Below, in pieces: positions 9,803 to 37,953 of a stretch of DNA of 64,000 nucleotides. The translations under genes and the position numbers were made by a program. How positions within the stretch are numbered: the first letter of the stretch is position 1; the number at the start of each line of letters is the position of its first letter. Under the pieces are notes generated by a model, which had not been told where the DNA came from, did not search any database, and saw only the letters and a list, made by a program, of their open reading frames with translations. The DNA comes from BD1-7 clade bacterium (GTDB lineage: Bacteria > Pseudomonadota > Gammaproteobacteria > Pseudomonadales > DT-91): NCBI GenBank assembly GCA_902705835.1, contig CACSIN010000029.1, positions 126,477 to 190,476 on the forward strand, written 5' to 3'.

Positions 9803-9876
9803 AACTCTCTCCTGATGGGTGTCTTTTGACTTTCTGTTTACGGGCCCTATTCTTTCTTCTGAACACATTTTTGACT

Positions 9877-11374: not shown

Positions 11375-11979
11375 AGCACGAACGTATTGAAAAAAATATT
11401 GGCTTGATGATGGTTTTCATCACGCTGGTGATCAGCGTTGGTGCTCTGGTTGAAATTGTTCCGCTGTTTTTTGGCAAGAGCACGACCACCCCCGTCGCCG
11501 GCTTAAAGCCACCAAACGCTATGCAATTGGAAGGCCGTGATATTTATATCCGAGAAGGTTGCCACGTATGCCATACACAGATGATTCGTCCATTACGGGC
11601 AGAAACCGAGCGCTACGGTCATTACTCTGTAGCTGGTGAATCCGTCTATGAGCACCCTTTTTTGTGGGGCTCTAAACGCACAGGGCCTGACTTAGCGCGT
11701 GTTGGCGGTCGTTACAGCGACGACTGGCATAAGTTACACCTATACAACCCTCGAGACGTAGTACCAGGTTCCAACATGCCTGCCTACCCATGGCTATGGG
11801 AAAACACCATTGACGGCAGCCTGACAGGCAGAAAAATGGCGGCTTTGCGTATCGTTGGCGTACCTTACACTGACGAACAAATCGCCGGAGCCCAGGCCAA
11901 AACCGATGGCCAACTCGAAATTGAAGCCCTGGTGCAATACCTGCAACAGTTGGGCACAGTACTGAAACATAAGCGATAG
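11371..11979 (+). CDS. ccoO: cbb3-type cytochrome c oxidase subunit II CcoO
   Basis: A 202-residue monoheme cytochrome c subunit anchored by one N-terminal membrane helix (about residues 10-33). The heme motif is CHVCH within [18 protein letters not shown], the family signature. A methionine in [10 protein letters not shown] is the likely distal ligand. It passes electrons to CcoN in the periplasm. The ATG overlaps the ccoN stop (ATGA), indicating translational coupling. Confidence 0.97.
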
Positions 11980-11992
11980 GGGGCCGACCACT

Positions 11993-12145
11993 ATGGATCT
12001 AGATATAAACACCGTCCGCTCGATTTTAACCCTGTTGTTATTTATCGGTTTTGTCACCCTTTGCTTGCTGGTTATCGTTCGTGAACGCCACGCCTACGAC
12101 GATGCTGCTGAAATCCCTTTCAAGGAGCCAGATAATAATGAATAG
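11993..12145 (+). CDS. ccoQ: cbb3-type cytochrome c oxidase small subunit CcoQ
   Basis: A 50-residue protein beginning MDLDINTVRSILTLLLF, with one membrane helix (about residues 10-29) followed by a charged tail (RERHAYDDAAEIPFKEP). Size, topology, the RERH tail and position between ccoO and ccoP identify CcoQ, which stabilises the interaction of CcoP with CcoNO. It overlaps the ccoP start by 8 bases, and the ccoP ribosome binding site (AAGGAG) lies inside its last codons. Confidence 0.93.
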   Translation: MDLDINTVRSILTLLLFIGFVTLCLLVIVRERHAYDDAAEIPFKEPDNNE

Positions 12146-13034
12146 CTTTTGGAGTGTTTGGGTCATTGTGCTGACACTCGGCACTATCGCCGGTGTCACG
12201 TGGTTGCTATTTGCTAACCGCCACAAAGAAGATACGGAAGACAACCAACTCACTAGCCATGTCTATGATGGCGTTGAAGAATACGATAATCCCCTACCCG
12301 CTTGGTGGTTTAACTTATTCCTAGGCACCATCATATTCGCAGGTATCTACCTATGTTTATACCCGGGGTTAGGCAACTTCAAAGGCCTATTGGGTTGGTC
12401 ATCAACTGGCCAATGGCAGGAACGCGTTGACAAAGCCGATGCGAAATTCGAAGAAGAAGTCAAAGCCTTTAAAGACGTACCCGCTGCGCAGTTATCTCAA
12501 GACTACAAAGCCGTACGCATGGGTGAGCGCCTGTACAAGAGCTATTGCTCTTCATGCCACGGCCCGAATGCGCAAGGCGGCTATGCATTCCCGAACCTAA
12601 CCGATGACCACTGGATCTGGGGCGGCACCGCAGCAGATATCACAACGACACTAACCAACGGTCGTCAGGCCAATATGCCTCCGATGGTTGCGCTGCTTGG
12701 CAATGATCTCGATCCTATGATCGACCTCGTTCAACAAATTGCGCAAGTCAAAGATATCAGCAAGTTAAAAGATGAACCCATGTATACCAAGTTTCAGCAA
12801 GTTTGCGCAGCATGCCACGGCCCAGAAGCCAAAGGCAATCCGCTGCTAGGCTCTGCAAACCTGACATCAGGTGTTTGGTTATACGGTGGCACCAAGGAAG
12901 ATATTAAGCTGACCCTGACTCAGGGCCGCAACGGACAAATGCCAGCATTTAAGGATATTCTCTCGCCTGAGCGTATTCACTTGCTTGTCGCTTTCCTACT
13001 ATCTTTCCAAGAGCAGCAGCCCGCGTCTAACTAA
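12138..13034 (+). CDS. ccoP: cbb3-type cytochrome c oxidase diheme subunit III CcoP
   Basis: A 298-residue membrane-anchored diheme cytochrome c. Two hydrophobic segments precede the heme domains (near residues 5-25 and 58-77; DNPLPAWWFNLF is the family signature). The heme motifs are CSSCH and CAACH. It receives electrons from soluble cytochromes and relays them to CcoO. The ATG at 12138 is used because AAGGAG lies just upstream and the CcoP-like N-terminus begins there; a longer frame runs back to 12051 through ccoQ. Confidence 0.96.
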   Translation: MNSFWSVWVIVLTLGTIAGVTWLLFANRHKEDTEDNQLTSHVYDGVEEYDNPLPAWWFNLFLGTIIFAGIYLCLYPGLGNFKGLLGWSSTGQWQERVDKADAKFEEEVKAFKDVPAAQLSQDYKAVRMGERLYKSYCSSCHGPNAQGGYAFPNLTDDHWIWGGTAADITTTLTNGRQANMPPMVALLGNDLDPMIDLVQQIAQVKDISKLKDEPMYTKFQQVCAACHGPEAKGNPLLGSANLTSGVWLYGGTKEDIKLTLTQGRNGQMPAFKDILSPERIHLLVAFLLSFQEQQPASN

Positions 13035-13058
13035 GACGCGAGCGGCTGAGGGGTTGTA

Positions 13059-14423
13059 ATGTCCAAGAAAGAGTCGCTCTACCAGAGTCGTAAAAAGATC
13101 TATCCGAAGCTCATCAGCGGTTTCTACCAACGCTGGCGTCGAATTTTTGGTATCGCTGTCTACGGGTTGTTTTTTCTTGTGCCGTGGATCAACCTAGACG
13201 ACCGACCGATAGTGTATTTCGATCTGGCTCAGCGACAATTTCACCTACTAGGTCTGAACTTTTGGCCTCAGGATTTCATGTTCCTGGCTTGGTTTTTGAT
13301 CATTGCAGCCTATTCACTTTTTACCTTTACTAATATTGCCGGCCGCCTCTGGTGTGGTTTTTTATGCCCGCAAACTATCTGGACCCTCGCCTTCGTTTGG
13401 GTTGAAGATAAAATTGAAGGTAACTCCTATCACCGCAAAAAGATCGACCAGCAGGATAAACTAACAGCCAACCAACGCGCTAAACGCGTTGCGAAGTACG
13501 TTGTATGGCTACTGATGGCACTGTTAACCGGAGCCACGTTTGTTTCCTATTTTTACCCTGCACGCGAGCTTTATCCAGCATTGCTTAGCGGTGACATAAC
13601 GCTGACACCACTGGTGTGGGTTGGCATCTTCACCTACCTGACGTTCATTGATGCTGCGGTTCTTCGCGAGCAAGTCTGCATTTATATGTGCCCGTATGCA
13701 CGCTTCCAAAGCGTTATGTATGACGAAAATACGCTGGCGGTTGCATACAACCCTGATATCGGCGAACCCAGAGCTTCCTTGAAAGCCCAAAAAAGTGGCA
13801 AGATTGAAAATGCCGGCGGCTGCATCGACTGCTCACTATGTGTGCAAGTTTGCCCAACGGGTATCGATATCCGCGACGGAATGCAGATAGACTGCATCAA
13901 TTGCGGCTTGTGCGTTGATGCTTGTGCAGATGTTATGGAATCTGTCGATCGCCCCAAAAACCTCATTACGTTTAACACACTGAACCGTTTAAACGGCAAA
14001 GAAACGCACTTAATCAGGCCGAGAACAGTGGGTTATTCCATTGTGCTATTCGCCATGATCACACTCTTCACGACCATGCTGTTTAATCGTGTCGCGGTTG
14101 AAGCTTCGGTGATTCGTGAACGCGATCGTATTTATCGCGTCAATGCACAACATGAAGTCTCTAATTACTACTTACTCAAAATTGCCAATAAATCGCAAGA
14201 GGACCAGAGCTATACCGTCAATATCGAGACCGAAGGGTTCAAACTCGCGAAATCGCCGGTTGTTACCTTGAAGAAGGGACAGATGGTAGAACGGCCATTG
14301 ACGGTGCTTAGCCCGCAAAAAGACCCGGGCAGTTACCCGATCACGTTTGAAGTTATTTCAACAAAAGACCAAAGCATACTGAAAACGATAGAATCACGTT
14401 ATATATTCCCTAGCCAACGCTAG
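13059..14423 (+). CDS. ccoG: Cytochrome c oxidase accessory protein CcoG (RdxA/FixG)
   Basis: A 454-residue membrane protein with several N-terminal helices, two ferredoxin-type [4Fe-4S] motifs (CIDCSLCVQVCP and CINCGLCVDAC, about residues 259-290), further conserved cysteines (GFLCPQTIW and CIYMCPYARFQ), and a C-terminal periplasmic immunoglobulin-like domain. CcoG has been implicated in copper reduction for assembly of the cbb3 copper B site. It follows ccoP by 24 bases with a GAGGGG ribosome binding site. Confidence 0.95.
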   Translation: MSKKESLYQSRKKIYPKLISGFYQRWRRIFGIAVYGLFFLVPWINLDDRPIVYFDLAQRQFHLLGLNFWPQDFMFLAWFLIIAAYSLFTFTNIAGRLWCGFLCPQTIWTLAFVWVEDKIEGNSYHRKKIDQQDKLTANQRAKRVAKYVVWLLMALLTGATFVSYFYPARELYPALLSGDITLTPLVWVGIFTYLTFIDAAVLREQVCIYMCPYARFQSVMYDENTLAVAYNPDIGEPRASLKAQKSGKIENAGGCIDCSLCVQVCPTGIDIRDGMQIDCINCGLCVDACADVMESVDRPKNLITFNTLNRLNGKETHLIRPRTVGYSIVLFAMITLFTTMLFNRVAVEASVIRERDRIYRVNAQHEVSNYYLLKIANKSQEDQSYTVNIETEGFKLAKSPVVTLKKGQMVERPLTVLSPQKDPGSYPITFEVISTKDQSILKTIESRYIFPSQR

Positions 14424-14444
14424 CTCGACAAAAAGTGGTGCCCT

Positions 14445-14960
14445 ATGCCAACGCAAGATCTTGATCAATTACCCTGGTACCGTCAGTTTTGGCCATGGTT
14501 TTTGATCGCACTGCCGGGCAGTGTTGTTATTGCCAGCCTTTGGCTGGTATTTATATCGTTCAAACATGCAGATTCGGTTGTTTCAGATAACTACTACAAA
14601 GAAGGCCTGGCTATCAGTCAGGTCGTAGAAGATTTGAAACGCGCGACCAATCTTGGCTTGCAAGCTAATCTAGCAATGAACCACGGCGTTCTCACCGTGA
14701 GTTTACAATCAGAGCAGCCTCTAAAAGACGATCAAAATCTACCGATCGGCATCGCCCTGCTACACCCAGCGGATAAAGCCTTAGACCATCGCGTTATTGC
14801 CAAACCGATTGGCAACTATGTGTATATCGCTGAGATCGGAGACATTCCGGCAGGCCGTTGGTACATGGATATTTATTCACAGAAAGAGGCGGATAACTGG
14901 CGATTAAAAGGTGAGCTTTATGCTCCCTTTGACAAGGCCATTTTGTCGGCAGACCAATAA
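14445..14960 (+). CDS. ccoH: cbb3 oxidase assembly protein FixH/CcoH
   Basis: A 171-residue protein with one N-terminal membrane helix (residues about 16-38) and a periplasmic domain. The segment after the helix, with DSVVSDNYYKEGLAI, is the conserved FixH motif. CcoH is needed for stable assembly of the cbb3 oxidase and interacts with CcoNOP. It lies 21 bases after ccoG and 3 bases before ccoI. Confidence 0.93.
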   Translation: MPTQDLDQLPWYRQFWPWFLIALPGSVVIASLWLVFISFKHADSVVSDNYYKEGLAISQVVEDLKRATNLGLQANLAMNHGVLTVSLQSEQPLKDDQNLPIGIALLHPADKALDHRVIAKPIGNYVYIAEIGDIPAGRWYMDIYSQKEADNWRLKGELYAPFDKAILSADQ

Positions 14961-14963
14961 ATA

Positions 14964-17444
14964 ATGGCCACCTCAGCTTGTTACCATTGCGGTGAACCTG
15001 TACCCAAAACATGCCACTATCGGGCTACATTAGACGGTCAGGATTGCGAATTTTGTTGCCCTGCCTGCCTTGCTATTGCTCAAACAATTCACGGTAGTGG
15101 TTTGGACAAATACTATGTCCAAAGGGATTCAAACGCCTTTACCCCAGGACAGCAGGCAGTAAAAGCTGACTACATTTTGTGGGATGACCCAAAACTCAAT
15201 GCCGAGTTTGTGAATGTCAGCAACGAGATTACCAAAGCTCAACTCTACATCGAGGGCATGCATTGCACATCGTGTGCGTGGTTGATCGAAAAGTATCTGC
15301 AGCAGTTTGAAAATGCCAACGCTCGCGTAAATTACCAAGAGCAAGTACTCACCATCAGTTGGCCGTCTGACACCTACACTGTCAGCGCGTTTATGCAAGC
15401 GATTGCAGATCTTGGCTATACACCGCATCCCTATGAAGCTGATCGGGTAGAGCTCATTGAAAAGGCCAGTCAGCGCAGCCAAATAAAACGTATCGGTATT
15501 ACCGCAATTCTTATGATGCAATTAGGGATGCTCGCCGGCAGTGTCTATGCCGGAGACTACTGGGGCATCTCAGACAGCCAGCGTCAGCTACTGCATGCGT
15601 TTGGCTTGCTATTCTCATTGCCATTATTGTATTTCAGCGCACAGCCGTTTCTAACATCTGCCTGGCATAGCCTAAAAAACCGTCGAATTAATATGGACGT
15701 CAATATATCGCTGGCCATTCTCGGCTTATACGGCGGCTCTATCACCAGTATTATTCAAGAAACTGGCGATGTGTATTTTGATTCTATCGCCATGTTGTGC
15801 CTGTTTATACTCATCGCACGGTACATTGAATTTCGCTCACGCTACCGTCTGCGGCAAAATACCGGTCTTGTTCCCAAGGTCGCCAAAAAGCAGGTTAACA
15901 CCCGCTATGAAGATACCCTGATTGCCGATTTGATCGTTGACGACGTCGTCATGGTCAATCAGGGAGAAACGATTCCTATTGATGGCACTGTTGTCAGCGG
16001 GATGAGCTCTGCCGACGAATCCATGTTAACCGGGGAGTCCAGCGCTATCAGCAAAAAGGCCGGTGACGCGGTATTTGCTGGTAGTATCAATCATGACGGC
16101 ATTATCCATATTCAAGTTTCGCAGCTGGCATCAAACTGCCTAATACGGCAGATTGAACAAGCATGCACAAGCGACAGTGGCGCTAAACCGGTAGTGGACG
16201 ATGAAGACACTCTCTTTGCCGGCGCATTTACCGCCATCGTTTTATTACTCGCAATGTTGACGTTCATTGCTTGGCAATGGATCGACCCTGCTCGAGCTTT
16301 CTGGGTCGCACTCTCCGTTTTAGTGATTAGCTGCCCGTGCGCGCTCTCTCTAGCTGCGCCAACAGCGCGAAGCACAGTACAGTTTCAGTTACGACGCCAG
16401 GGCATCATCGTCAGGGGTGCACACGTCATCGATACATTGAATAAAATCACACAGTGTTTCTTCGATAAAACCGGCACGCTCACGCGCGGTAGCTACCAGA
16501 TCACCGCCATTGAAAATCGCAGTGATCTAAACAATGAACGGCTCTTGAATATTGCCGCTCGATTGGAACAGCATTCCAGCCATCCCATTGCGTCCGCTTT
16601 CACCACTCAGCAACACGCCACTTCATCCAACAAAAAAGTCACAGGGCTTGATGATTCGCCGGCGCAGTCATTCAATGTCGTACCCAACCAAGGGGTCGAA
16701 GGCGTTATTGATGGCGAAACTTACCGCCTTGGCAGCCTGCACTATTGCCAGCAATGGCATGCGGGCAAAGTACCGCCGGATCAGCAGCTTCTTTGGGTCG
16801 GTTTATGCACACAAACACAAATGCTAGCGTGGTTTTGTTTACAAGATAACCTTCGTGCAGATGCTCCTGAAGTCGTTAGGTTTTTGCGTGAGCAAGGGAT
16901 TGATATGGGCATAATTAGTGGCGACAGCTCCGGTGAAGTTGCCAGTGTCGCTGCTGTTCTCGGTATCGACGATTGGCAAAAAAGCATGACCAGCGAACAG
17001 AAGCAGCAGTATTTGCAACAGCATCAACATGCTGGCGCAGTCACAATGATGGTTGGCGATGGCATCAACGATGCGCCCTCGCTGGCGGGGAGTCACCTAT
17101 CAGTCACCTTGGCGAATGCTTCAGATTGGCTAAAAAGCCAGACCGATCTGATTTTGATCAATAACAGCCTCGCAGGCATCGAACAATCGATGACGGCTGC
17201 CCGACGCTACCAACGTATCTACCGACAGAATTTCATTTGGGCACTGACCTATAACTTTGCCGCGATACCGATTGCGATGGCAGGTTTTATTACCCCGTTA
17301 TGGGCGGCTGTCGGTATGTCCTTCAGTTCTATTCTGGTTGTGTTAAATTCCCAGCGTTTATTAACCCGACAGAAGCCAGCGGCCAAAAAGGCAGTAAAAC
17401 AGCCGCCCGCTCCCGCGCCTCTAGCATTTAAGGAGAGCCACTGA
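14964..17444 (+). CDS. ccoI: Copper-translocating P-type ATPase CcoI (FixI)
   Basis: An 826-residue P1B-type ATPase that supplies copper for cbb3 oxidase maturation. It has an N-terminal cysteine-rich region (CYHCGEPVP; CEFCCPAC), a metal-binding CTSC at 101-104, the intramembrane metal site SCPCALSL, the phosphorylation motif DKTGTLT, the SSHPIA motif and the hinge GDGINDAPSL. The N-terminal zinc-ribbon-like region and operon position distinguish CcoI from general copper exporters. The ATG follows the ccoH stop by 3 bases, and its stop overlaps the start of ccoS. Confidence 0.95.
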   Translation: MATSACYHCGEPVPKTCHYRATLDGQDCEFCCPACLAIAQTIHGSGLDKYYVQRDSNAFTPGQQAVKADYILWDDPKLNAEFVNVSNEITKAQLYIEGMHCTSCAWLIEKYLQQFENANARVNYQEQVLTISWPSDTYTVSAFMQAIADLGYTPHPYEADRVELIEKASQRSQIKRIGITAILMMQLGMLAGSVYAGDYWGISDSQRQLLHAFGLLFSLPLLYFSAQPFLTSAWHSLKNRRINMDVNISLAILGLYGGSITSIIQETGDVYFDSIAMLCLFILIARYIEFRSRYRLRQNTGLVPKVAKKQVNTRYEDTLIADLIVDDVVMVNQGETIPIDGTVVSGMSSADESMLTGESSAISKKAGDAVFAGSINHDGIIHIQVSQLASNCLIRQIEQACTSDSGAKPVVDDEDTLFAGAFTAIVLLLAMLTFIAWQWIDPARAFWVALSVLVISCPCALSLAAPTARSTVQFQLRRQGIIVRGAHVIDTLNKITQCFFDKTGTLTRGSYQITAIENRSDLNNERLLNIAARLEQHSSHPIASAFTTQQHATSSNKKVTGLDDSPAQSFNVVPNQGVEGVIDGETYRLGSLHYCQQWHAGKVPPDQQLLWVGLCTQTQMLAWFCLQDNLRADAPEVVRFLREQGIDMGIISGDSSGEVASVAAVLGIDDWQKSMTSEQKQQYLQQHQHAGAVTMMVGDGINDAPSLAGSHLSVTLANASDWLKSQTDLILINNSLAGIEQSMTAARRYQRIYRQNFIWALTYNFAAIPIAMAGFITPLWAAVGMSFSSILVVLNSQRLLTRQKPAAKKAVKQPPAPAPLAFKESH

Positions 17445-17596
17445 TGGAAAGTCTCTACATTCTCATTCCCATTGCTGCGCTGTTTGTCATCGTCGCTATC
17501 GGTCTCTTTATCTGGTCGGTTGAAAGCCGACAGTTTGACGACCTTGACCGCGAAGCCCGCCGCATTCTTGAAGACGACGATATTGCTGATAAATAA
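17444..17596 (+). CDS. ccoS: cbb3 oxidase maturation protein CcoS
   Basis: A 50-residue protein with one membrane helix (about residues 4-25) followed by SVESRQFDDLDREARRIL, the characteristic CcoS tail. CcoS is required for cofactor insertion into the cbb3 oxidase. Its ATG overlaps the ccoI stop by one base and has AAGGAG upstream; its stop overlaps the next ATG (TAATG). Confidence 0.95.
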   Translation: MESLYILIPIAALFVIVAIGLFIWSVESRQFDDLDREARRILEDDDIADK

Positions 17597-18309
17597 TGAC
17601 TTACTCTCTACTCGCCGCTGCATTTGGCATCGGGCTGCTTAGTACCAGCCACTGTATTTTTATGTGTGGCGGTATCGCCTCAGCACTTTCAGCCAATGTT
17701 ACCGGCGTCGGTTTTCAACGTTTTGCGCGACTCGCACTGTTTCATCTCGGCAGAATATCCTGTTACGCGTTATTAGGTTTTTTTGTGGCCAGTATTCTCT
17801 CGGTTGCTGCTGACCAATATAAATTAGTGGGTATTACACTGCGCCATGTCGCCGCGTTCATGATGATCATGATCGGTTTTTATATCGCTGGCGCCGGCCG
17901 CTTTATTAAATTTATTGAAAAGCGCTTCAGTTTTATTTGGTCATCACTACAACCGCTGGTGCAACGCTATATCGGCATGAAAAAGATCCACCATGCGTAT
18001 CTATTGGGGTTTCTATGGGGCTTTTTACCGTGCGGGGTCATCTATAGCACGTTGATTTGGGCAAGTAGCTCCGCCGACGGACTTAATGCCAGTGTGCTTA
18101 TGTTTGTGTTTGGATTGGGCACGCTACCTGGGTTTTTAGCACTCGGCGTTATTCAACAGCCATTAATGAAATTGATGCGCTCGAAGCATGCAAAGTGGCT
18201 AGTTGGCATGGCCTTTATTCTGTTCGGAATTTGGACACTCGCGAGTTTTTACTACCCCATGCTGATGGGGGGTGGAGCACATAACCACAGCAGCCATATG
18301 ATGCACTAA
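17596..18309 (+). CDS. TauE/SafE-like (UreH-domain) membrane protein of the cco cluster
   Basis: A 237-residue membrane protein with about six hydrophobic segments. The conserved starts of the two repeat halves are visible: STSHCIFMCGGIASAL near residue 16 and LGFLWGFLPCGVIYSTLIWA near 135, with the Cys-Gly and Pro-Cys-Gly motifs typical of the family next to cbb3 genes. Family members have been proposed to act in metal or sulfur compound transport or oxidase maturation; the role is not settled. One-base overlap with ccoS makes it the last gene of the operon. Histidines cluster at the C-terminus (HNHSSHMMH). Confidence 0.85.
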   Translation: MTYSLLAAAFGIGLLSTSHCIFMCGGIASALSANVTGVGFQRFARLALFHLGRISCYALLGFFVASILSVAADQYKLVGITLRHVAAFMMIMIGFYIAGAGRFIKFIEKRFSFIWSSLQPLVQRYIGMKKIHHAYLLGFLWGFLPCGVIYSTLIWASSSADGLNASVLMFVFGLGTLPGFLALGVIQQPLMKLMRSKHAKWLVGMAFILFGIWTLASFYYPMLMGGGAHNHSSHMMH

Positions 18310-19272: not shown

Positions 19273-19767
19273 CTATGCACTTTCAGAGAAGTTTCCCGCC
19301 AGAAAGGCTGCTTTCTTAATATCAAGTGCATGCCACTGCTCATCGGTAAGATGACGTTCGGCATAGAAAAAAAGCTTTTTTTGCTCATTGTCTGCATGTT
19401 GCAAATGGTGCTTAACAAATCGATCGGCAGAACGAATCAAAGCCGCTCGAAACCCAGTTCTATCACCACGATCAATCTGGGCATAAACAAGCTCCGCGAG
19501 GTCATCGAGAATTTGATGGTCCTCGATCATATGGTACAACACGCTCTTATAATCGCCAGCATTCTCAGTCGACAACAGGCAGTTCATTACCTGCTCTTCC
19601 ATATAGTGATGTATACCATCACTGAAGGCGACAATCTCATCCAAAAGCACACGCAGTGAATTCAAATGCTCCGGCGTTTGAGCATTCTGAGCTTTGCGCT
19701 GCAATTGAACCAGCAGAGCTGCCATAGCTCGATGATCTTGTTTCAACTCGTCAATGATAGCAACCAC
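19273..19767 (-). CDS. Hemerythrin-like HHE domain protein
   Basis: A 164-residue four-helix protein carrying the hemerythrin ligand pattern: H12, H53/H54 with E57/E58 (HHYMEEQ), H79-x4-H84 (HMIEDH) and HHLQHADNEQ with H120/H121/H124 and D126. Such proteins bind a di-iron centre and act in oxygen or NO sensing, storage or iron handling. The GTG at 19767 is chosen because GAGGTG lies just upstream; the frame stays open to an ATG at 19875, which would place an inverted repeat inside the coding region. A perfect FNR box precedes it, suggesting induction at low oxygen or by NO. Confidence 0.78.
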   Translation of the reverse strand: MVAIIDELKQDHRAMAALLVQLQRKAQNAQTPEHLNSLRVLLDEIVAFSDGIHHYMEEQVMNCLLSTENAGDYKSVLYHMIEDHQILDDLAELVYAQIDRGDRTGFRAALIRSADRFVKHHLQHADNEQKKLFFYAERHLTDEQWHALDIKKAAFLAGNFSESA

Positions 19768-19822
19768 AGAATTCACCTCGATTTGTCCATGATGAAGCAT
19801 AGCAAACGCCCTATTCAGTGTT

Positions 19823-19842
19823 TTGACCTGCATCAAGGTCAA
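19823..19842. promoter_or_regulatory. Palindrome upstream of the hemerythrin-like gene
   Basis: TTGACCT (19823-19829) and AGGTCAA (19836-19842) are perfect 7-bp arms around 6 bases. The element lies between the FNR box and the GTG start at 19767. It may be a second operator; it also resembles a widely spaced FNR/Dnr half-site pair. Function unproven. Confidence 0.4.
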
Positions 19843-19898
19843 ATCGCTCAAACAATATGAAGTGCCGCTGATCACTCAGATTTGCGCCAGATCACTCG

Positions 19899-19912
19899 TT
19901 GATTTACATCAA
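19899..19912. promoter_or_regulatory. FNR/Anr/Dnr box upstream of the hemerythrin-like gene
   Basis: TTGATTTACATCAA is a perfect FNR-family consensus palindrome. It is 131 bases upstream of the chosen GTG start of the hemerythrin-like gene and about 219 bases before hsaC, so the hemerythrin-like gene is the more likely target. Confidence 0.78.
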
Positions 19913-20130
19913 AGAAAGCCGGTGCGCCATCCCCTAAAGTTAAGCCGATCACGATTTTAAGAATTCTCGGCGCTTGCCGGCATATTCCGACGTTAAGAAC
20001 ACTGCAAAGAAGCATCAGGGCTGCTTCCGGTGGATTTTTACACCGTGTGCATTTTATACAGACCATCGTCAATGTGTCAGACCAAGAACCGGAAAATAAA
20101 GATAGAAAAGCATAAGTCACAGGAGTTCTC

Positions 20131-21039
20131 ATGCGAATCAAAGCGTTGGGATATATCATCATCGAAGCCACAAACCCCGCCGCTTGGCAGGGTTTTATGG
20201 AAGATACCGTCGGCATGATGCTGGCGCCATCCATGGACAACAGCAACAACCTGTATTTCAAAATGGACGAATACAGCTGGCGCTTTCGCGTAGAACAATC
20301 GGATAAAGATTGTCTGTCATACGCAGGCTGGGAGTTGGTTGATAAAACAGCGTTTGATCAGGCATTAGCCGAACTTGATACCGCAGGCACAAGCTATGAG
20401 CGACTCAGCGCAGAAGCTTGCGAAGAAAAAGGAATTCGCGAAGGCATTGGCCTTAAAGATCCGGGCGGCAACTATCTGGAACTTTTTTACCAGATGAAAC
20501 TGGATTACCAACGATTGATATCCAAAGTTGGGGTTCCAAACTTTTTGACCGGGTATCACGGCGACATGGGCCTAGGCCATTGGGTGCTGCCAACATCATC
20601 ATTCGACGAGTGTTACGCATTTTATAAAGATGTGCTCGGCTTTGGCGACGTGGATTACATGCACTTCCACTTTAACCCTGACCCGCAAGATCCAGGACAG
20701 GGCCTCCACTTCATGCATGTTGATAACCCACGCCATCACAGCTTGGCCATTTACCAAGATCCAAATCCTCCCGAATCAAACTGTGTGCATTTGATGGTTG
20801 AAGTCGATGATATGGATGAAGTCGGATACTTCATTGATCGCTGTAAACAAAATGACGTACCGATTGTTTCTACTCTTGGCCGCCACACTAACGACCTGAT
20901 GATTTCTGTTTATGTTGCAACCCCCGGTGGATTTGCTCTGGAGTTTGGTTGTGACGGCGTGCAAGTGGATTGGGAAGACTACAAACCAACGACTTCTTCC
21001 GTGCCTTCCTTATGGGGTCATGAGTGGAACCACGGCTAA
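20131..21039 (+). CDS. hsaC: 3,4-DHSA 4,5-dioxygenase HsaC (extradiol ring cleavage)
   Basis: A 302-residue two-module type I extradiol dioxygenase. Iron ligands are H150 (GLGH), H220 (CVHLMVEV) and E271 (LEFGC), with the catalytic histidine in RHHSLAI. The C-terminal half (TLGRHTNDLMISVY, TPGGF, EFGCDGVQVDW, SLWGHEW) closely matches HsaC/BphC-type steroid enzymes as I recall them. HsaC opens the catecholic A ring of 3,4-dihydroxy-9,10-seconandrost-1,3,5(10)-triene-9,17-dione. The ATG follows a strong ribosome binding site (ACAGGAG). hsaA follows after 30 bases, so they form an operon. Confidence 0.93.
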   Translation: MRIKALGYIIIEATNPAAWQGFMEDTVGMMLAPSMDNSNNLYFKMDEYSWRFRVEQSDKDCLSYAGWELVDKTAFDQALAELDTAGTSYERLSAEACEEKGIREGIGLKDPGGNYLELFYQMKLDYQRLISKVGVPNFLTGYHGDMGLGHWVLPTSSFDECYAFYKDVLGFGDVDYMHFHFNPDPQDPGQGLHFMHVDNPRHHSLAIYQDPNPPESNCVHLMVEVDDMDEVGYFIDRCKQNDVPIVSTLGRHTNDLMISVYVATPGGFALEFGCDGVQVDWEDYKPTTSSVPSLWGHEWNHG

Positions 21040-21069
21040 TTGAAGAATCAGAATATAAGAGGACAAATT

Positions 21070-22248
21070 ATGTTAGATAAAGTCAGTTTACAGGAACAAA
21101 TTCGTCAGAGCGCACGCGATCTGGTTCCCGCTATCCGAACTCGTCAAAATGAAACCGCCCAACTGGGTCGCCTACCGGATGCAACGATCGACGCCATGCA
21201 AGAAGCTGGTTTTTTCCGCATCATGCAACCAAAGCGTTTTGGTGGTTATGAGCTGGATCCACAAGATTTCTTTGATGTACAGCAGACCTTGGCTGAAGGC
21301 TGCATGTCTACCGCATGGGTTCTAGGCGTTGTTGCTATCCATAACTGGCAACTCGGCATGTTTGCAGACCAAGCGCAACAAGACGTCTGGGGCGACGATG
21401 ACAGCGTATTGATCTCATCGTCATATATGCCAGTTGGCAAAGTTGAAATCGTCGACGGCGGCTACATGTTGTCCGGTCATTGGGGTTTCTCTTCAGGCTC
21501 CAAGCATTGTCAGTGGGCATTTCTTGGCGCCATGATCCCTTCCGAAGGCGCACCGGATTACCGCACCTTTTTGGTTCCACTGGGCGACTACGAAATTGTC
21601 GATAACTGGGATGTGAGCGGTTTGGAAGGCACTGGCTCCAACGACATCGTGATCAGAGAACCTGTGTTCGTTCCCGAACATCGTACCCACAAATCTGTCG
21701 ACGGGTTCACTGGTCAAAACCCCGGTTGCGCTGAAAATACCGCACCAAGCTTTACACTACCATTTGGTCAAATCTTTACCCGCGCAGTCGCATGCTCATC
21801 AATTGGTGCGCTACAAGGCGTCGTTAACAACTATGTTGATGTACAAAAAGACCGCGTCGGTTTGAATGATGGCGCTAAAATTGCGCAAGACCCGAATGCG
21901 CAGATGGCACTGGCTGAAGCGATTGCCTGTATCGAAGAATGTCGTGCAATCCTTAAAGACGATTTGGACTTTTTCACTCACCATGCCAACAACGGTCTTG
22001 AGCTCGATATTAATGAACGTATTCGTCGCCGTTTCAACGCTTCTCGTATTTCACGTAAATGCGCAGACTCCGTTAATGAATTGTTCATCGCCTGCGGTGC
22101 CCAAGGTATTTTCCGTGGTCACCCACTCAACCGCGCATGGCTCGATATCAACGCTGGCCGCTCACACGTTGCCAACAACCCGTTCAAGTTTGGTCGCAAC
22201 CTGGGGGGAACTTTGCTGGGTCTACCAAACACGGATTTCTTCCTGTAA
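21070..22248 (+). CDS. hsaA: 3-HSA hydroxylase oxygenase HsaA (flavin-dependent monooxygenase)
   Basis: A 392-residue protein of the acyl-CoA dehydrogenase-fold, FMN-dependent monooxygenase group. It has the N-terminal helical domain (ATIDAMQEAGFFRIMQPKRF), a central beta domain (SGHWGFSSGSKHCQWA; GLEGTGSND) and a C-terminal helical domain ending in AWLDINAGRSHVANNP. HsaA hydroxylates 3-HSA to the catechol cleaved by HsaC; a flavin reductase (HsaB) is needed but not in the window. The ATG at 21070 has AGAGGA upstream; a TTG at 21040 directly after hsaC is less likely. A terminator follows. Confidence 0.92.
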   Translation: MLDKVSLQEQIRQSARDLVPAIRTRQNETAQLGRLPDATIDAMQEAGFFRIMQPKRFGGYELDPQDFFDVQQTLAEGCMSTAWVLGVVAIHNWQLGMFADQAQQDVWGDDDSVLISSSYMPVGKVEIVDGGYMLSGHWGFSSGSKHCQWAFLGAMIPSEGAPDYRTFLVPLGDYEIVDNWDVSGLEGTGSNDIVIREPVFVPEHRTHKSVDGFTGQNPGCAENTAPSFTLPFGQIFTRAVACSSIGALQGVVNNYVDVQKDRVGLNDGAKIAQDPNAQMALAEAIACIEECRAILKDDLDFFTHHANNGLELDINERIRRRFNASRISRKCADSVNELFIACGAQGIFRGHPLNRAWLDINAGRSHVANNPFKFGRNLGGTLLGLPNTDFFL

Positions 22249-22265
22249 ATCCATTTCGCACTTAT

Positions 22266-22300
22266 AATGGCGGGCCACTTGGCCTGCCATTTATTTCATT
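22266..22300 (+). terminator. Terminator after hsaCA
   Basis: AATGGCGGGCC (22266-22276), loop ACTT, GGCCTGCCATT (22281-22291) form an 11-bp stem with one G-U pair, followed by TATTTCATTTG. It separates hsaA from the truncated hemoglobin gene and may be partial. Confidence 0.75.
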
Positions 22301-22333
22301 TGCCATTGCAGGCACAGTAACGAGGAGCAAGCA

Positions 22334-22735
22334 ATGAGCCAGAAAACACCCTATGAGCTTATGGGTAAAGAAGAAGGTATTCGCGCTTTCGCTGCCGCAT
22401 TCTACGATGCAATGGACGAATTACCCGAAGCCGAGCATGTTCGCAAAATGCATGCTCAATCTCTCACCGATATCAAAGAAAAGTTGTTTGAATACTTAAA
22501 CGGCTGGTTTGGTGGCCCACATTTGTATCAAGAAAAGTACGGTTCGATTTGCCTGACTGACCCGCACAAGCCTTACAAAATTTCGGAAAGCGCCCGTGAT
22601 GAATGGCTGTTATGCTGGGATAAAGCCTTGGATACGGTTGGTGCTTCTGACGAACTCAGAACGATGCTGAAAGATCCTATTTTCAGAATGGCTGATTTCA
22701 TGGTTAATGATCGAGAAGACACCAAAGCGAGTTAA
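22334..22735 (+). CDS. Group II truncated hemoglobin-like protein
   Basis: A 133-residue globin-fold protein. The group II signature is visible: YELMGKEEGIRAFAAAFYDAMDE in the A-B helices, KEKLFEYLNGWFGGP in the E helix, then YGSICLTDPHKPYKIS, where the histidine before the F helix and the WLLCWDKAL G helix match trHbII. These proteins bind oxygen or NO in the cytoplasm. A good ribosome binding site (GAGGAG) precedes the ATG. It lies 85 bases after hsaA in the same direction but behind a terminator-like hairpin; a second terminator follows. Confidence 0.87.
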   Translation: MSQKTPYELMGKEEGIRAFAAAFYDAMDELPEAEHVRKMHAQSLTDIKEKLFEYLNGWFGGPHLYQEKYGSICLTDPHKPYKISESARDEWLLCWDKALDTVGASDELRTMLKDPIFRMADFMVNDREDTKAS

Positions 22736-22773
22736 AACCATCATTGGCTGGCTTGGCTGTATCCAAACCCATT

Positions 22774-22803
22774 GAGTAGCGGCTCTTTCGCTACTCCTTT
22801 CTA
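22774..22803 (+). terminator. Terminator after the truncated hemoglobin gene
   Basis: GAGTAGCG (22774-22781) and CGCTACTC (22789-22796) with a 7-base loop, followed by CTTTCTATT. Confidence 0.72.
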
Positions 22804-22815
22804 TTGAGGATGACT

Positions 22816-23067
22816 ATGTCTTTGCTTACAACTTCTGCACTCATGCAATTCTTTGGATGGGCCACGTTAATTAACTTTTTGATCCTCGCGGTTGCTACGC
22901 TCTCCATTGTCTTGATGCGTGACACAATGATCGACATTCACTCTAAAATGTTTGGGATAGAAAAAAACCAGCTACCGGCAATGTATTTTAGGTACCTGGC
23001 TAATTACAAAATAGCGACAGTCGTATTCTGCTTTGTCCCTTGGCTTGCGCTAACGATCATTAGCTAA
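22816..23067 (+). CDS. DUF6868-like small membrane protein
   Basis: An 83-residue protein with two hydrophobic segments (about 10-33 and 60-80) around a conserved-looking middle (RDTMIDIHSKMFGI and YFRYLANYKIA). As I recall, this fits the DUF6868 family of unknown function. The ATG at 22816 has TTGAGGATG upstream at proper spacing. Its last 18 bases overlap the end of the convergent secreted-protein gene. Confidence 0.68.
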   Translation: MSLLTTSALMQFFGWATLINFLILAVATLSIVLMRDTMIDIHSKMFGIEKNQLPAMYFRYLANYKIATVVFCFVPWLALTIIS

Positions 23068-23328
23068 AGCGAATTTTCGAGATGTTCCCAGCTTCACGGA
23101 TTTTAACGAACTGTCAGCATATTGCTCCGCAGAGGAGTGCCTGCAAATCGTTGTTTTGGTGAAGCTACGATTCAAACATTGATGTGAGGCGACTTCAGAA
23201 TTAAAGCTGTTACCTCGCATGCCTACATCATTTCGATCCTGATAACTCTTCGGGCCCGCCATCAACAATGTACTGGCACCTGCTAAACTGGCGACAACGA
23301 CGATATTTCGTATAACGTTGGTCTTCAT
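23050..23328 (-). CDS. Small secreted protein, paralogue A
   Basis: A 92-residue protein with a Sec signal peptide (hydrophobic residues about 8-23, cleavage after LLMAG or nearby). The mature part is basic and contains two cysteines (SHQCLNRSF, TICRHSS). RSFTK and the near C-terminal SVKLGT are shared with the adjacent gene at 23411-23698, marking a tandem duplication. GAGGGG lies 6 bases before the ATG. No known domain was recognised. Its 3' end overlaps the convergent DUF6868-like gene. Confidence 0.6.
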   Translation of the reverse strand: MKTNVIRNIVVVASLAGASTLLMAGPKSYQDRNDVGMRGNSFNSEVASHQCLNRSFTKTTICRHSSAEQYADSSLKSVKLGTSRKFALANDR

Positions 23329-25634: not shown

Positions 25635-25652
25635 AGCGGCTAAATAGCCGCT
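25635..25652. terminator. Hairpin between convergent luxR and coxC
   Basis: AGCGGCT (25635-25641), loop AAAT, AGCCGCT (25646-25652) is a perfect 7-bp stem that reaches the coxC stop codon. No T-run follows in either direction, so termination is uncertain. Confidence 0.4.
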
Positions 25653-26545
25653 CAGAACCAGTAAACAAAAAAGAACAACATAATCCAAACAACATCAACA
25701 AAGTGCCAATACCAAGCAACGCCTTGAAACGCAAAATGACGCTCAGGGGTAAAATGGCCCAAAGCACACCTCACCAAAATCACCGCGAGCATCGTCACGC
25801 CGATGGTAACATGCGCTCCGTGAAAGCCCGTCAATAAGAAAAACATACTGCCATAAACACCCGAATTGAGCGTTAAACCGCGCTCGGTATAACTTTCATA
25901 ATACTCAAACGCCTGACAACCAAGAAACGTTGCACCCAGCAGAATGGTAAGCACCATCCAAAACAGCAACGCTTTACGTTTGTTGTGTTTGAGCGCATGG
26001 TGCGCCATCGTAATCGTGCCACCGCTGGACAGCAGCAGTAACGTATTCAACACAGGAATTCCTGATGGGGAGGCAGCCTCTTTAGCACCAAGAAATTGCG
26101 TGTTATCTGGGTTGCTGATCAGCGGCCAGACGGCGGAAAAGTCCGGCCAGATCAGAATATTTGTTAGCGGATAAATATCCCCGCCAAGCAGAGGAATACT
26201 CCAAATACGTGTAAAAAACAGAGAGCCAAAGAATGTACTAAAAAAGAAGACTTCTGAGGTTATAAACCAAATCATTCCGCGTCGAAACGCCGTGCCTTCC
26301 AATCCTTGATAAGCACCATTTTTGTTCTCAGTAATAACTTTGGCAAACCAACCAAACATCATCATCACAATGATCAAAAATCCAACAAAAAATATGTATG
26401 GGCCATACCATTTGTAATGTAACCAGTTACCCAAGCCCACAAAAAAGCAGAATAACCCGATACTGGCAACAATGGGCCAATGGCTGGGTTCAGGCACGTA
26501 GTAACGTGGTTGCGCATCTGCATCATGATTCTGCATGTATGTCAC
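25652..26545 (-). CDS. coxC: Cytochrome c oxidase subunit III
   Basis: A 297-residue membrane protein with about seven helices. It carries the subunit III signatures: FWFITSEVFFFSTFFGSLFF-like helix (TSEVFFFSTFFG), FLLTGFHGAHVTIG and the C-terminal WYWHFVDVVWIMLFFFVYW. It belongs to the caa3/aa3 oxidase encoded just upstream (coxB-coxA-ctaG-coxC) and stabilises the catalytic core. The start is 6 bases after the ctaG stop. It is the last gene of the operon. Confidence 0.95.
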   Translation of the reverse strand: MTYMQNHDADAQPRYYVPEPSHWPIVASIGLFCFFVGLGNWLHYKWYGPYIFFVGFLIIVMMMFGWFAKVITENKNGAYQGLEGTAFRRGMIWFITSEVFFFSTFFGSLFFTRIWSIPLLGGDIYPLTNILIWPDFSAVWPLISNPDNTQFLGAKEAASPSGIPVLNTLLLLSSGGTITMAHHALKHNKRKALLFWMVLTILLGATFLGCQAFEYYESYTERGLTLNSGVYGSMFFLLTGFHGAHVTIGVTMLAVILVRCALGHFTPERHFAFQGVAWYWHFVDVVWIMLFFFVYWF

Positions 26546-26551
26546 CCCTGT

Positions 26552-27079
26552 CTAACGCTCATACAATGTATAAGAAAGTGTTAGCGTCGAATACGCTTCT
26601 GGTATATCCGGCGATATCGACAAAACCAAAGGCAATACTGCAGATTCCCCGGCACCTAACGTTTGTTCAGTGAAACAAAAACATTCCATTTTGATAACGT
26701 ACTGCGCCAGTTCCGTCGGCGTTACATTGGCAATAGCCTGGATCGTCTGCGACTGATCGCCGTGATTAGTCGCATGAAAGTCAATGTGATATTCCTTGCC
26801 CGGCTCAACGCTCATTGAGGGTTGTTTCGTAAAAAACGTCCAGTCTATGCCGTTGTTGGTTACCACCATTTGCAAGTTTACTGGGTTCACCGCCACACCC
26901 GATGACGATTGCATTTGCTGTGGGCCGTCTGCAATTTTGCCGTTAATACCCAACGCCTGGCACAAGGTGTCGTAAAGTGGAACCAATGCAAACGCAAAGG
27001 CAAACATAAAAACAACACCCAGCAGCAGCCATGCTAGCACCCGAGATTTGCGCTTTTCAATCGTCGTTGTCTGTTCCAT
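26552..27079 (-). CDS. ctaG: Cytochrome c oxidase assembly protein CtaG (Cox11)
   Basis: A 175-residue protein with one N-terminal membrane helix (about 13-33) and a periplasmic copper-binding domain. The copper motif CFCFTEQ is present, after PFEP-like elements typical of Cox11 (VMKMECFCFTEQ-type region, then LPLVLSISPDIPEAY). It inserts copper into the copper B site of subunit I. It lies 10 bases after coxA in the oxidase operon. Confidence 0.94.
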   Translation of the reverse strand: MEQTTTIEKRKSRVLAWLLLGVVFMFAFAFALVPLYDTLCQALGINGKIADGPQQMQSSSGVAVNPVNLQMVVTNNGIDWTFFTKQPSMSVEPGKEYHIDFHATNHGDQSQTIQAIANVTPTELAQYVIKMECFCFTEQTLGAGESAVLPLVLSISPDIPEAYSTLTLSYTLYER

Positions 27080-27089
27080 ATTCCACTCC

Positions 27090-28697
27090 CTATTTCACTT
27101 CGGGTGGAACTTGAAAACTGTGATAAGGCGGCGGGGAAGGCAGCGTCCATTCCAAGCCCTCGGCGCCGTCCCAAACCTGATTATCAACACGTTTGCCCTT
27201 ACGAATCGTCCAGATCACATTATAGAAGAATAACAACTGGGCAAAGCCGAAGAAAAAAGCACCGACAGTCATCAATGCGTTAAAGTCCGTAAACATCAAT
27301 GCATAATCCGGGATCCGCCGCGGCATGCCCGCCAACCCAACAAAGTGCATCGGAAAAAACGTCACATTGACGAAGATCGCACTGAGCCAAAAATGCCACT
27401 TTGCTATTACTTCGTTGTACATACGCCCGCACCACTTGGGCAACCAATAATAAATACCGGCCGTCAACGCGAAAACCGAACCTGGTACCAACACATAGTG
27501 AAAGTGGCCGACCACAAAGTAAGTATCCTGATATTGGAAATCAGCCGGCGCAATCGCCAACATCAACCCAGTGAAACCGCCAAAGGTAAACAGAAAAATA
27601 AACGCCAGTGAGAATAACATCGGGGCTTCAAAGCTGAGTGACCCGCGCCATATTGTCGCGACCCAGTTGAAAATTTTCACACCTGTCGGCACAGCAATCA
27701 ACATGGTCGTATACATAAAGAAAAGCTCTGCAGAAAGCGGCATTCCGGCAGTAAACATATGATGCGCCCAAACGATGTACGACAACAAGGCAATGGCAAT
27801 CGTCGCATGAACCATATTGTGATAGCCGAAGAGTTTCTTGCGTGCGAAGGTTGGGATAACGCTCGAAACAATACCAAACGCCGGCAAAATCAGTACATAC
27901 ACCTCTGGGTGACCAAAAAACCAGAATAAATGCTGGAATAGCACCGGATCACCACCGCCGGCCGCATCAAAAAAGCTGGTGCCAAAATTCCGGTCAAACA
28001 GCATCATGGTTACTGCTCCAGCAAGAACCGGCATGATAGCTAGCAGCAGAAATGCCGTAATCAGCCAAGTCCATGCAAACATAGGTAGCTTGTACCACGT
28101 CATACCTGGCGCGCGCAGTGTCCAGATCGTTACGACAATATTCAATGCACCCAGTATTGAAGAGATACCCAACATATGGATGGAGAAAATGAAGAAGTCT
28201 GTACTTGGTGGCGCATAGGTCGTGGAAAGCGGTGCATAGAACGTCCATCCGAAATTCGGACCGCCGCCATCCATGGCAAACGTACTCGCCATCAAGAGAA
28301 ACGCGAAAGGCAAAATCCAAAAGCTTAGATTATTCAACCGCGGCAAGGCCATATCGGGTGCGCCGATCATCATCGGAATCTGCCAGTTTGCGAGCCCAAC
28401 ACCTGCTGGCATTAAAAATCCGAAAATCATGATCAGACCATGCATGGTCGTCAATGTGTTATAGAGATTCGGATCAACCAGAGCCAGACCAGGCGCGAAC
28501 AACTCGGTACGAATGATAAGCGCCTGAATCCCGGCAAAAATAAATGTGCCCATGGCGAACCACAGGTAAAGTGTGCCGATATCCTTGTGGTTTGTGGTAA
28601 ATACCCAACGCTTGATATACGCGAGCACACCAGAGCCGTGGTCATGATGGTGATGCTCAGGGTTGTGAGGATCTTGCGCCTGCATTTCCGTGGTCAT
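27090..28697 (-). CDS. coxA: Cytochrome c oxidase subunit I (aa3/caa3 type)
   Basis: A 535-residue catalytic subunit with 12 membrane helices. Visible are TTMHGLIMIF (heme a ligand region), WFFGHPEVYVLILPAFG (copper B histidine, cross-linked tyrosine and proton-channel glutamate), AHHMFTAGM (copper B histidines) and VVGHFHYVLVPGS (heme ligands). The N-terminus has a histidine-rich stretch (PEHHHHDHGSG). It overlaps the coxB stop by 4 bases. It is the aerobic counterpart of the high-affinity cbb3 oxidase in the same window. Confidence 0.97.
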   Translation of the reverse strand: MTTEMQAQDPHNPEHHHHDHGSGVLAYIKRWVFTTNHKDIGTLYLWFAMGTFIFAGIQALIIRTELFAPGLALVDPNLYNTLTTMHGLIMIFGFLMPAGVGLANWQIPMMIGAPDMALPRLNNLSFWILPFAFLLMASTFAMDGGGPNFGWTFYAPLSTTYAPPSTDFFIFSIHMLGISSILGALNIVVTIWTLRAPGMTWYKLPMFAWTWLITAFLLLAIMPVLAGAVTMMLFDRNFGTSFFDAAGGGDPVLFQHLFWFFGHPEVYVLILPAFGIVSSVIPTFARKKLFGYHNMVHATIAIALLSYIVWAHHMFTAGMPLSAELFFMYTTMLIAVPTGVKIFNWVATIWRGSLSFEAPMLFSLAFIFLFTFGGFTGLMLAIAPADFQYQDTYFVVGHFHYVLVPGSVFALTAGIYYWLPKWCGRMYNEVIAKWHFWLSAIFVNVTFFPMHFVGLAGMPRRIPDYALMFTDFNALMTVGAFFFGFAQLLFFYNVIWTIRKGKRVDNQVWDGAEGLEWTLPSPPPYHSFQVPPEVK

Positions 28698-29848
28698 TTC
28701 TGCACTACCTGTATCGCCTGACGTCTCTTTTTCACCTGATCCGGCGTCACTAAGTCACCGGTATTGTTTTCCCAGGCATTCCGTTCGTAAGTAATAACCG
28801 CAGCCATATCGGCATCTGTCAGTTGGTTCGCGTACGATTGCATCGCCGAACCTTTTACCCCTCTTAACACCAGATCAATATGTTCATCAGGGTTACCACC
28901 AACGGCAACGGAGCTCCCTTTGAGTGCCGGAAATAACTTGCCAATGCCCTCACCGTTAAAGCCATGGCAACCTGCACAATTCTGTTCGTAGACTTGTTTA
29001 CCTCGATCCAACGCAGTCATCATGTTCCAGTCACTGACCGCCTGTTCGTACTTGTATTGCCCTTCATGTTTTGCCACCCAGCTATCGAATTCTGGCTGAC
29101 TGACTGCTTGTACCACGATCGGCATAAAGCCGTGATTAACACCACAAAGCTCCGCACATTGCCCACGATAGGTACCTGGTTCTTCAATATATGCCACTGC
29201 CTCATGGAGAAATCCGGGAATAGCATCACGCTTAACGCTGAACGCCGGCACCCACCAGCTATGAATAACATCTGTTGATGTCACCAAAAATCGCACTTTT
29301 TGGTTAATCGGCAGCACTACTGGATTGTCAACTTCCAACAGATACCATTCAGTTTTTGGCCCTTGATTGTAGATTTGATCCAGTGGTGTTTTGAGCCGAC
29401 TGAAGAAAGATATGTTTTGATCTAGGTACTCGTATTGCCACTTCCATTGCGACCCTGTGACCTTGACCGTCACATCCGCCTCACTAAAATCGTTCATACG
29501 TATCAGTACGTTGGTTGCAGGCCACGCCATACCAGCGAGAATAAAAAACGGAATGACCGTCCACACAATCTCAAGCCAAAGATGCTCATGCGTGTCACCG
29601 ACGTCGCCTTTGTATTTAGAGTGCCTGAACTTGAACATTGAGTAGATCAAGGCACCGTAGACAATGATCGCAATCACTAGACAAAAGCCCATGATGATCA
29701 TATGTAAATCAAAAACATCCCGGCTTATCGGCGTGACGCCCGGAGTCATATTCAGCTGCCATTCGGCTCTTGCGGGTAAACCTGCTAATAACAGCAGCCC
29801 GGCGGCCAAGCAGCGACGGATTTTATAGTTGTTCACAAGACTATCCAT
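28694..29848 (-). CDS. coxB: Cytochrome c oxidase subunit II with fused cytochrome c domain
   Basis: A 384-residue protein: signal sequence ending near LPARA, two membrane helices, a cupredoxin domain with the CuA motif CAELCGVNHGFM (about 231-242) and a C-terminal cytochrome c domain with CAGCH (about 291-295). This fusion defines a caa3-type oxidase. The start is uncertain: the ATG at 29848 puts the signal peptide at the N-terminus, while an ATG at 29887 overlaps the upstream stop (TGATG) and would add 13 residues. It is cotranscribed with the tetraheme cytochrome gene upstream. Confidence 0.93.
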   Translation of the reverse strand: MDSLVNNYKIRRCLAAGLLLLAGLPARAEWQLNMTPGVTPISRDVFDLHMIIMGFCLVIAIIVYGALIYSMFKFRHSKYKGDVGDTHEHLWLEIVWTVIPFFILAGMAWPATNVLIRMNDFSEADVTVKVTGSQWKWQYEYLDQNISFFSRLKTPLDQIYNQGPKTEWYLLEVDNPVVLPINQKVRFLVTSTDVIHSWWVPAFSVKRDAIPGFLHEAVAYIEEPGTYRGQCAELCGVNHGFMPIVVQAVSQPEFDSWVAKHEGQYKYEQAVSDWNMMTALDRGKQVYEQNCAGCHGFNGEGIGKLFPALKGSSVAVGGNPDEHIDLVLRGVKGSAMQSYANQLTDADMAAVITYERNAWENNTGDLVTPDQVKKRRQAIQVVQK

Positions 29849-29886
29849 GTTTGCCGTATATACCCATTTAATGCAATTGAATGCCA

Positions 29887-35738: not shown

Positions 35739-35804
35739 TCCAGTCGCTATGTGCGCTAAGCGTTAGCCGGTAAGCTGTTATTCGTCGGCCCCAGAGATCG
35801 TATT

Positions 35805-37846: not shown

Positions 37847-37953
37847 CACAGTGGTAATTCCTTCAAAAGACAACTGCGGCCATTGTACGCACATATGCCT
37901 GACGATTTAAAAGCAACTTGGAGAAAGATTAAAACGAACGGTCAACAAACGAG

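Follow-up and report, generated by a model that had tools for sequence, protein, structure and literature searches.

The window analysed here is a stretch of 64,000 nucleotides from a BD1-7 clade bacterium (contig CACSIN010000029.1, positions 126,477 to 190,476 of the forward strand). Within it, an hsaC-like extradiol dioxygenase gene, an hsaA-like monooxygenase gene, and a truncated hemoglobin gene follow one another on one strand; these and other gene names, such as kshA, are given by family resemblance. The initial annotation of this DNA had placed a group II truncated hemoglobin gene 85 bases after hsaA on the same strand, which is borne out by the open reading frames and a Pfam match, the interval from the hsaA stop to the globin ATG being 22249-22333. 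Sponge isolates of the BD1-7 clade, SB113 among them, grow on cholesterol (PMC5790920; this and the other papers given by PMC number are cited from partial text). The features on which the analysis draws are as follows.

20131-21039, + strand: hsaC-like extradiol dioxygenase, with profile and structure matches and the metal ligands kept.
21070-22248, + strand: hsaA-like flavin-dependent monooxygenase, oxygenase subunit, a member of the Fnr-boxed clade described below.
22266-22291, + strand: hairpin between hsaA and the globin gene, a candidate weak terminator or attenuator.
22334-22735, + strand: group II truncated hemoglobin (Pfam PF01152).
19273-19875, - strand: hemerythrin-domain protein, divergent from hsaC (Pfam PF01814, 40.4 bits, cut-off 25.3).
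19899-19912: perfect Fnr/Anr box, between the hemerythrin gene (-) and hsaC (+).
19935-19940, + strand: -10-like hexamer TAAAGT, 22 nt after the box.
5760-6536, + strand: Fnr-type regulator (NF008365, 282 bits, cut-off 228).
4244-5758, + strand: hemN, oxygen-independent coproporphyrinogen III oxidase (TIGR00538, 579.8 bits, cut-off 325); the start as taken (4244) is possibly too early.
4287-4300: perfect Fnr box at hemN.

The gene order is conserved in relatives. In a sample of 390 genomes of the order, G000 being the window's own, linkage was found by comparing the positions of hsaA and globin matches and mapping the loci. The order hsaC-hsaA-globin, with the globin directly after hsaA on the same strand, is present in seven of the 390 genomes, from three families: G000, G003, and G004 (family f1), G066, G148, and G211 (f23), and G008 (f4). 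In five of the seven, all except G000 and G003, a KshA-type Rieske oxygenase gene is directly upstream of hsaC. From the families involved, this kshA-hsaC-hsaA-globin operon would encode enzymes for three oxygen-consuming steps of 9,10-seco steroid breakdown together with a globin, and the window arrangement would be its local form. The distance from the hsaA stop to the globin start is 11 nt in G066 and G148, 9 nt in G211, 43 nt in G008, and 65 nt in G004, and a single base is common to kshA and hsaC at two loci (L093 and L098). As the order recurs in three families, chance linkage of the globin and hsaCA was rejected. In a further genome, G206, the globin is about 4 kb from hsaA on the opposite strand. 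Beyond the order, none of 368 other genomes in a thin class-wide draw matches the window protein query P0002 (E 1e-125).

At a corresponding locus in G001, of the same genus as the window, a KshA-like gene, a cbb3 cluster, and a hemerythrin-like open reading frame (28 % over 154 aa) are followed by a broken globin, and hsaCA is absent. This globin lacks its first 23 residues and is frameshifted; the assembly is fragmented and the frameshift is possibly an error, but the missing start is harder to explain in this way. It is read as a broken remnant at a locus without hsaCA and is counted in favour of the interpretation given below. An apparently decayed second copy is also seen in G004:C3, where a 43-residue globin fragment (L150 from 9590, near the contig end) shares its stretch with homologues of hemN and fnr.

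Upstream of the window genes, the 255-bp region between the hemerythrin gene and hsaC contains the sequence TTGATTTACATCAA (19899-19912), one of two perfect Fnr boxes in the window (0.17 expected) and of 28 in the 5.06 Mb genome. The perfect box is also present at the corresponding locus of G003 (L003). From 124 hsaA matches, 79 loci were examined, comprising all 22 loci of the clade, those whose hsaA is 59 % or more identical to that of the window, and 57 others; the clade locus of G285, cut off by a contig edge, was left out, so that 21 were scored. Within at most 350 bp upstream of the operon, a box with 0-1 mismatch is present at 20 of the 21 clade loci and at two of the 57 others, and a perfect box at 10 and none, respectively. 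The clade boxes span nine family codes. Twelve genomes hold both kinds of hsaA; in nine the box is at the clade copy only, and in none is it at the other copy only. In the hsaA tree, a supported group of 21 rows consists of 19 boxed loci, G034 without a box, and the truncated G285. Widening to the next group, of 24 rows, brings in G031, which has a box, together with G123 and G012, which do not. Two clade loci outside the linked set, in G327 and G292 (L144 5320-7626 and L145 2447-4765), have a 1-mismatch Fnr box followed by kshA-hsaA, with neither hsaC nor a globin.

Since hsaA itself was often the first gene found among the 57 others, perhaps inside a longer operon, perfect boxes were also counted up to 5 kb upstream, giving 11 of 22 clade loci and four of 57 others, one of the four (G377) falling inside kshA. 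In a permuted-palindrome control, TTGAT gave 13 matches in the clade set, as against 0-1 for each of nineteen permutations; in the other set it gave 4, as against 0-2 per permutation. A spacing of 22 nt from box to hexamer is the geometry of Fnr class II promoters, and the window promoter has this layout, a perfect box with TAAAGT 22 nt after it. The box centre is predicted at about -41.5 and the start of transcription near 19947. A TAnnnT hexamer exactly 22 nt after the box occurs in seven of 25 box rows (G000, G003, G211, G066, G148, G051, and G008), whereas sixteen other offsets tested gave two together. The divergent hemerythrin gene may share the box.

A candidate to act at this box is the Fnr-type regulator at 5760-6536, which with hemN is 14-16 kb upstream of the operon in the window and has homologues, like hemN, directly beside the operon in G008. 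Its translation has N-terminal Cys residues and the recognition-helix motif ETVSRT, the meaning of which is taken partly from PMC4505428. The main rival explanation is protection from nitric oxide (NO): the regulator acting at the box would be Dnr-like or an Fnr sensitive to NO, and oxidation of NO by the globin would shield the Fe(II) in HsaC and the Rieske centre in KshA. Dnr-type regulators recognise the same box as Fnr, and truncated hemoglobins are able to react with NO. Published work on that reactivity (PMC3820574, PMC2323109), and on the reaction of NO with Fnr proteins too (PMC4771820), fits this explanation as far as the available text goes. It is nevertheless considered unlikely, as the window-type globins track HsaA genes and the window regulator carries the N-terminal Cys set of an oxygen-sensing Fnr.

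The Fnr-boxed genes are additional copies. The window's genome contains a second hsaC (43 % identical), next to genes resembling hsaD and hsaE/F/G, as well as two further hsaA, so that the window pair was rejected as the only hsaCA of the genome. The C25 hsaC of this genome scores 200.9 against the HsaC model, lower than the 256.8 of the window copy, which makes its standing as the canonical copy doubtful. In G066, G148, and G211, an ordinary kshA-hsaC-hsaA operon is present with the kshA-hsaC-hsaA-globin operon elsewhere on the same contig, the hsaA of the latter being 75-78 % identical to that of the window. The KshA tree (16 clade and 14 other sequences) and the HsaC tree (16 and 26) each split the two sets on one branch. 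In whole-genome searches of G000 and G003, each with 11 KshA_C matches, the best reach 148.8 and 148.0 bits, respectively, compared with 225-245 bits in seven other genomes searched; in these two genomes 9alpha-hydroxylation may be carried out by a divergent Rieske enzyme. A KshA-like Rieske protein is encoded at 8771-9868 on the - strand of the window, with orthologues (70-72 %) adjoining the same locus in G004 and G001. Elsewhere, a tandem pair of hsaC genes is behind kshA in G234 (L102 6525-8436), and a group II intron reverse transcriptase (L092 2677-4347) is near groEL, the second hsaC being a few kb away.

The names hsaC and hsaA in the initial annotation hold as family likeness, the closest solved structures being 2zi8, M. 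tuberculosis HsaC (listed as BphC), and 2rfq, a 3-HSA hydroxylase. They do not reach the curated NCBIfam cut-offs, and the proteins are therefore called HsaC-like and HsaA-like. The window HsaC has 256.8 bits against the HsaC equivalog model (cut-off 450) and 261.2 bits against the biphenyl-diol dioxygenase model (cut-off 366), and the window HsaA 384.1 bits (equivalog cut-off 450); the ordinary HsaC of a relative, at 275.3 bits, is also below 450, and the ordinary HsaA of a relative has 369.4 bits. In comparison with M. tuberculosis HsaC, the metal ligands H150, H220, and E271 are retained, as are H203 and Y261; in M. tuberculosis numbering we take the iron ligands to be His145, His215, and Glu266 and the catalytic residues to be His200 and Tyr256.

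The substrate pocket differs. At the five positions described as contacting DHSA in the available text of PMC2652662, the window HsaC (F, L, Y, V, W) is identical to the M. tuberculosis enzyme at two. The position of Phe294, one of these contacts, is Trp in all 16 clade HsaC and Phe in all 26 others; Trp is also found in the C25 HsaC of the window's genome, which is outside the HsaC tree. The clade-wide change at 294, the limited pocket identity, and the scores under both cut-offs would be expected if the enzymes were specialised for some other steroid or catechol, with Fnr control and the globin being secondary. This specialisation is improbable, given that three of the five positions differ from M. 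tuberculosis in the ordinary HsaC set too (position 294 does not), that the operon KshA, at 225-238 bits, score like ordinary KshA, and that only the oxygen-dependent steps are duplicated in the linked loci examined.

The globin is a group II truncated hemoglobin by domain and by its residues at B9 (Phe), B10 (Tyr), F8 (the proximal His), and G8 (Trp). It has 89.7 bits against Pfam Bac_globin (PF01152, cut-off 21), the only Pfam model that it matched; the Vitreoscilla-type classical globin domain, which we take to be PF00042, was not among the matches. The four residues just named, and His CD1, are kept in 23 of 23 aligned globins. The best solved structures are 2xyk (an Agrobacterium 2-on-2 hemoglobin) and 4uur (a truncated hemoglobin), at 88 bits each, a likeness by sequence match alone.

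Window-type globins were defined by E <= 1e-30 in the globin search, a threshold under which the operon globins of G008, G066, G148, and G211 fall among the other truncated hemoglobins. They are found in 26 of the 80 HsaA genomes and in six of the 310 that lack HsaA. There is no such link for genomes with other truncated hemoglobins only (10 of 80 and 70 of 310). By genus the counts are 16 of 32 and four of 110 (hand count), and among HsaA genomes the window-type globin is found in 14 of 22 clade-bearing genomes and 12 of 58 others; these co-occurrence counts leave species relatedness in. The suggestion of the initial annotation that the globin and the ring-cleavage pair form an oxygen-handling module for steroid catabolism is supported by this association and by the linkage in three families, a conserved linkage whose absence had been named as grounds for dropping it. 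Control by Fnr does not extend to all window-type globins, as only six of 36 unlinked copies have a box of their own (at most 1 mismatch, within about 320 bp), above chance but a minority.

In the globin tree, the operon globins are found at at least three places and the starred branches force four label changes; the globin has therefore probably been attached to the oxygenase set more than once. A single old linkage followed by fast divergence is a less favoured but admissible history, since the protein is short, its bootstrap unsettled, and the branches to the f23 and G008 proteins long.

The gap between hsaA and the globin gene bears on whether the two are tied in the window at all. A terminator-like hairpin had been reported there, and the hairpin itself is confirmed (22266-22291; 11-bp stem with 7 G-C pairs, 4-nt loop), the fold of 22245-22336 having -29 kcal/mol and a z of -2.98 against shuffles. 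Its terminator character is doubtful: the T tract that follows is interrupted (TATTTCATTT), and a terminator scan of 19800-23200 gave four such sites against a shuffle mean of 3.5. The hairpin is kept in the near-identical G003 but was not found at the hsaA-globin junction of five relatives, of which G004 has a shorter hairpin just 5' of the globin. A dispersed repeat was rejected, there being a single occurrence in the genome at up to 3 mismatches. With this hairpin in an 85-nt gap, and with close relatives of the globin apart from hsaCA in many genomes, the globin could be a separate unit that merely follows hsaCA. This is very improbable in view of the 9-11 nt spacing in three genomes, the recurrence in three families, and the co-occurrence with HsaA. 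Directly 3' of the globin, on the same strand, is a gene for a small DUF6868 protein (22816-23067), also present in G003 and not found in the other linked loci (E 1e-12).

The surroundings are a dense oxygen-response neighbourhood, with cbb3 and aa3 oxidases, Fnr, hemN, and hemerythrin close by. As a cbb3-type cluster (9947-18309) and an aa3-type cluster (25652-31581) flank the locus in the window, the globin might instead serve one of these oxidases. No cbb3 gene, however, is present in the stretches examined around five other linked loci (L093 and L097-L100), where hsaC and hsaA are the constant neighbours; a cbb3 oxidase was on this ground rejected as the constant partner, and a respiratory role is hardly probable. 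Further along the window, a GMC oxidoreductase gene with weak cholesterol-oxidase similarity (34155-36416) adjoins a gene of the Tll0287-like heme protein family, and a Tll0287-like gene also immediately precedes the globin operon of G066, G148, and G211 (including L098 10543-11139 and L100 12120-12728). The window also has a wax ester/triacylglycerol synthase-type acyltransferase gene (36413-37894; 304 bits, cut-off 310).

Gene order, clade structure, box and spacing, and co-occurrence are read directly from the sequence. Taken together, they make it probable that the operon encodes an Fnr-switched, low-oxygen isozyme set of steroid oxygenases with an attached globin as oxygen buffer or shuttle, nitric oxide protection being the principal competitor and the other explanations weaker. 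The operon would supply additional isozymes for the three oxygen-consuming steps of the 9,10-seco pathway. As oxygen falls, Fnr would bind the box at about -41.5 and activate transcription, so that the additional set is produced when the ordinary set works poorly. The globin would be translated from the same message, in the window through read-through past the hairpin, and would bind oxygen and buffer or shuttle it to oxygenases of only moderate oxygen affinity. The attached truncated hemoglobins most likely keep oxygen available to the oxygenases; among Fnr binding, induction at low oxygen, the steroid substrate, and the role in oxygen supply, each expected under this model, the last is the least certain.

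Several points weigh against this interpretation. All of the evidence comes from sequence; the hsaA survey covered 79 of 124 matches, and the 59 % identity cut was chosen after the pattern was visible. G034 has no box, nor do G123 and G012 in the wider tree group, while the two boxed loci among the others are the C25 hsaA copy of G000 and its twin in G003 (1 mismatch). HsaC and HsaA score below their cut-offs, kshA is missing from the window copy, where moreover a hairpin precedes the globin, and at 15 of the 22 clade loci hsaA is not directly followed by a globin. In addition, the authors of work on M. tuberculosis HsaC concluded that the enzyme is not adapted to extreme hypoxia (PMC2652662). 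The Km for oxygen given there is nearly three times below air saturation, but some extradiol enzymes from hypoxic soils have a Km almost two orders of magnitude lower (PMC2652662).

The closest known enzymes are KshA, HsaA, and HsaC of the 9,10-seco pathway in M. tuberculosis, for which we take TesA and TesB to be Comamonas counterparts. The families are the same, the same trio is adjacent in relatives of the window, and the metal ligands and catalytic residues of HsaC are kept; the genes described here differ in forming a separate clade with Fnr boxes, with Trp at the Phe294 position and, in seven genomes, a globin in the operon. A second ring-cleavage isozyme for low oxygen is also the idea behind the subfamily I.2.C catechol 2,3-dioxygenases (Kukor and Olsen 1996, as cited in PMC7012976), a likeness of idea, not of sequence; these act on catechols from toluene, not steroids, and globin and Fnr terms are absent from the available text of PMC7012976. 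Vitreoscilla hemoglobin is similarly a bacterial globin induced at low oxygen and proposed to hand oxygen to an oxygenase, and it raised DNT dioxygenase activity 2.7-fold in vitro (PMC3962134). In that case, as far as the partial text shows, the globin was added to a foreign dioxygenase, whereas here a globin of another family (PF01152) is inside the oxygenase operon, any contact between them being putative.

The oxygen-supply idea itself dates from 2009, when oxygen sequestration for M. tuberculosis HsaC, naming trHbO, was raised as a possibility (PMC2652662); what is new here is the Fnr-boxed clade of kshA, hsaC, and hsaA with a globin. No report of an Fnr-controlled steroid oxygenase set was found in the literature searched, which was mostly without subscription papers and with long result lists only partly covered, and within the same scope searches on steroid degradation with truncated hemoglobin, and on Anr with low oxygen and extradiol dioxygenase, found nothing.

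A stronger version is doubtful: the Trp-type HsaC and its KshA and HsaA partners would have a lowered Km for oxygen and be swapped by Fnr for the ordinary set, with globins recruited repeatedly, docking and handing over oxygen. If true, it would be a natural, operon-encoded partnership of globin and oxygenase. The 9,10-seco route requires oxygen at several steps in degrading the steroid nucleus, and a dedicated low-oxygen set with its own globin would account for the ability of some marine degraders to manage on little oxygen. Bacterial truncated hemoglobins, the roles of which are debated, would thereby gain a concrete client pathway.

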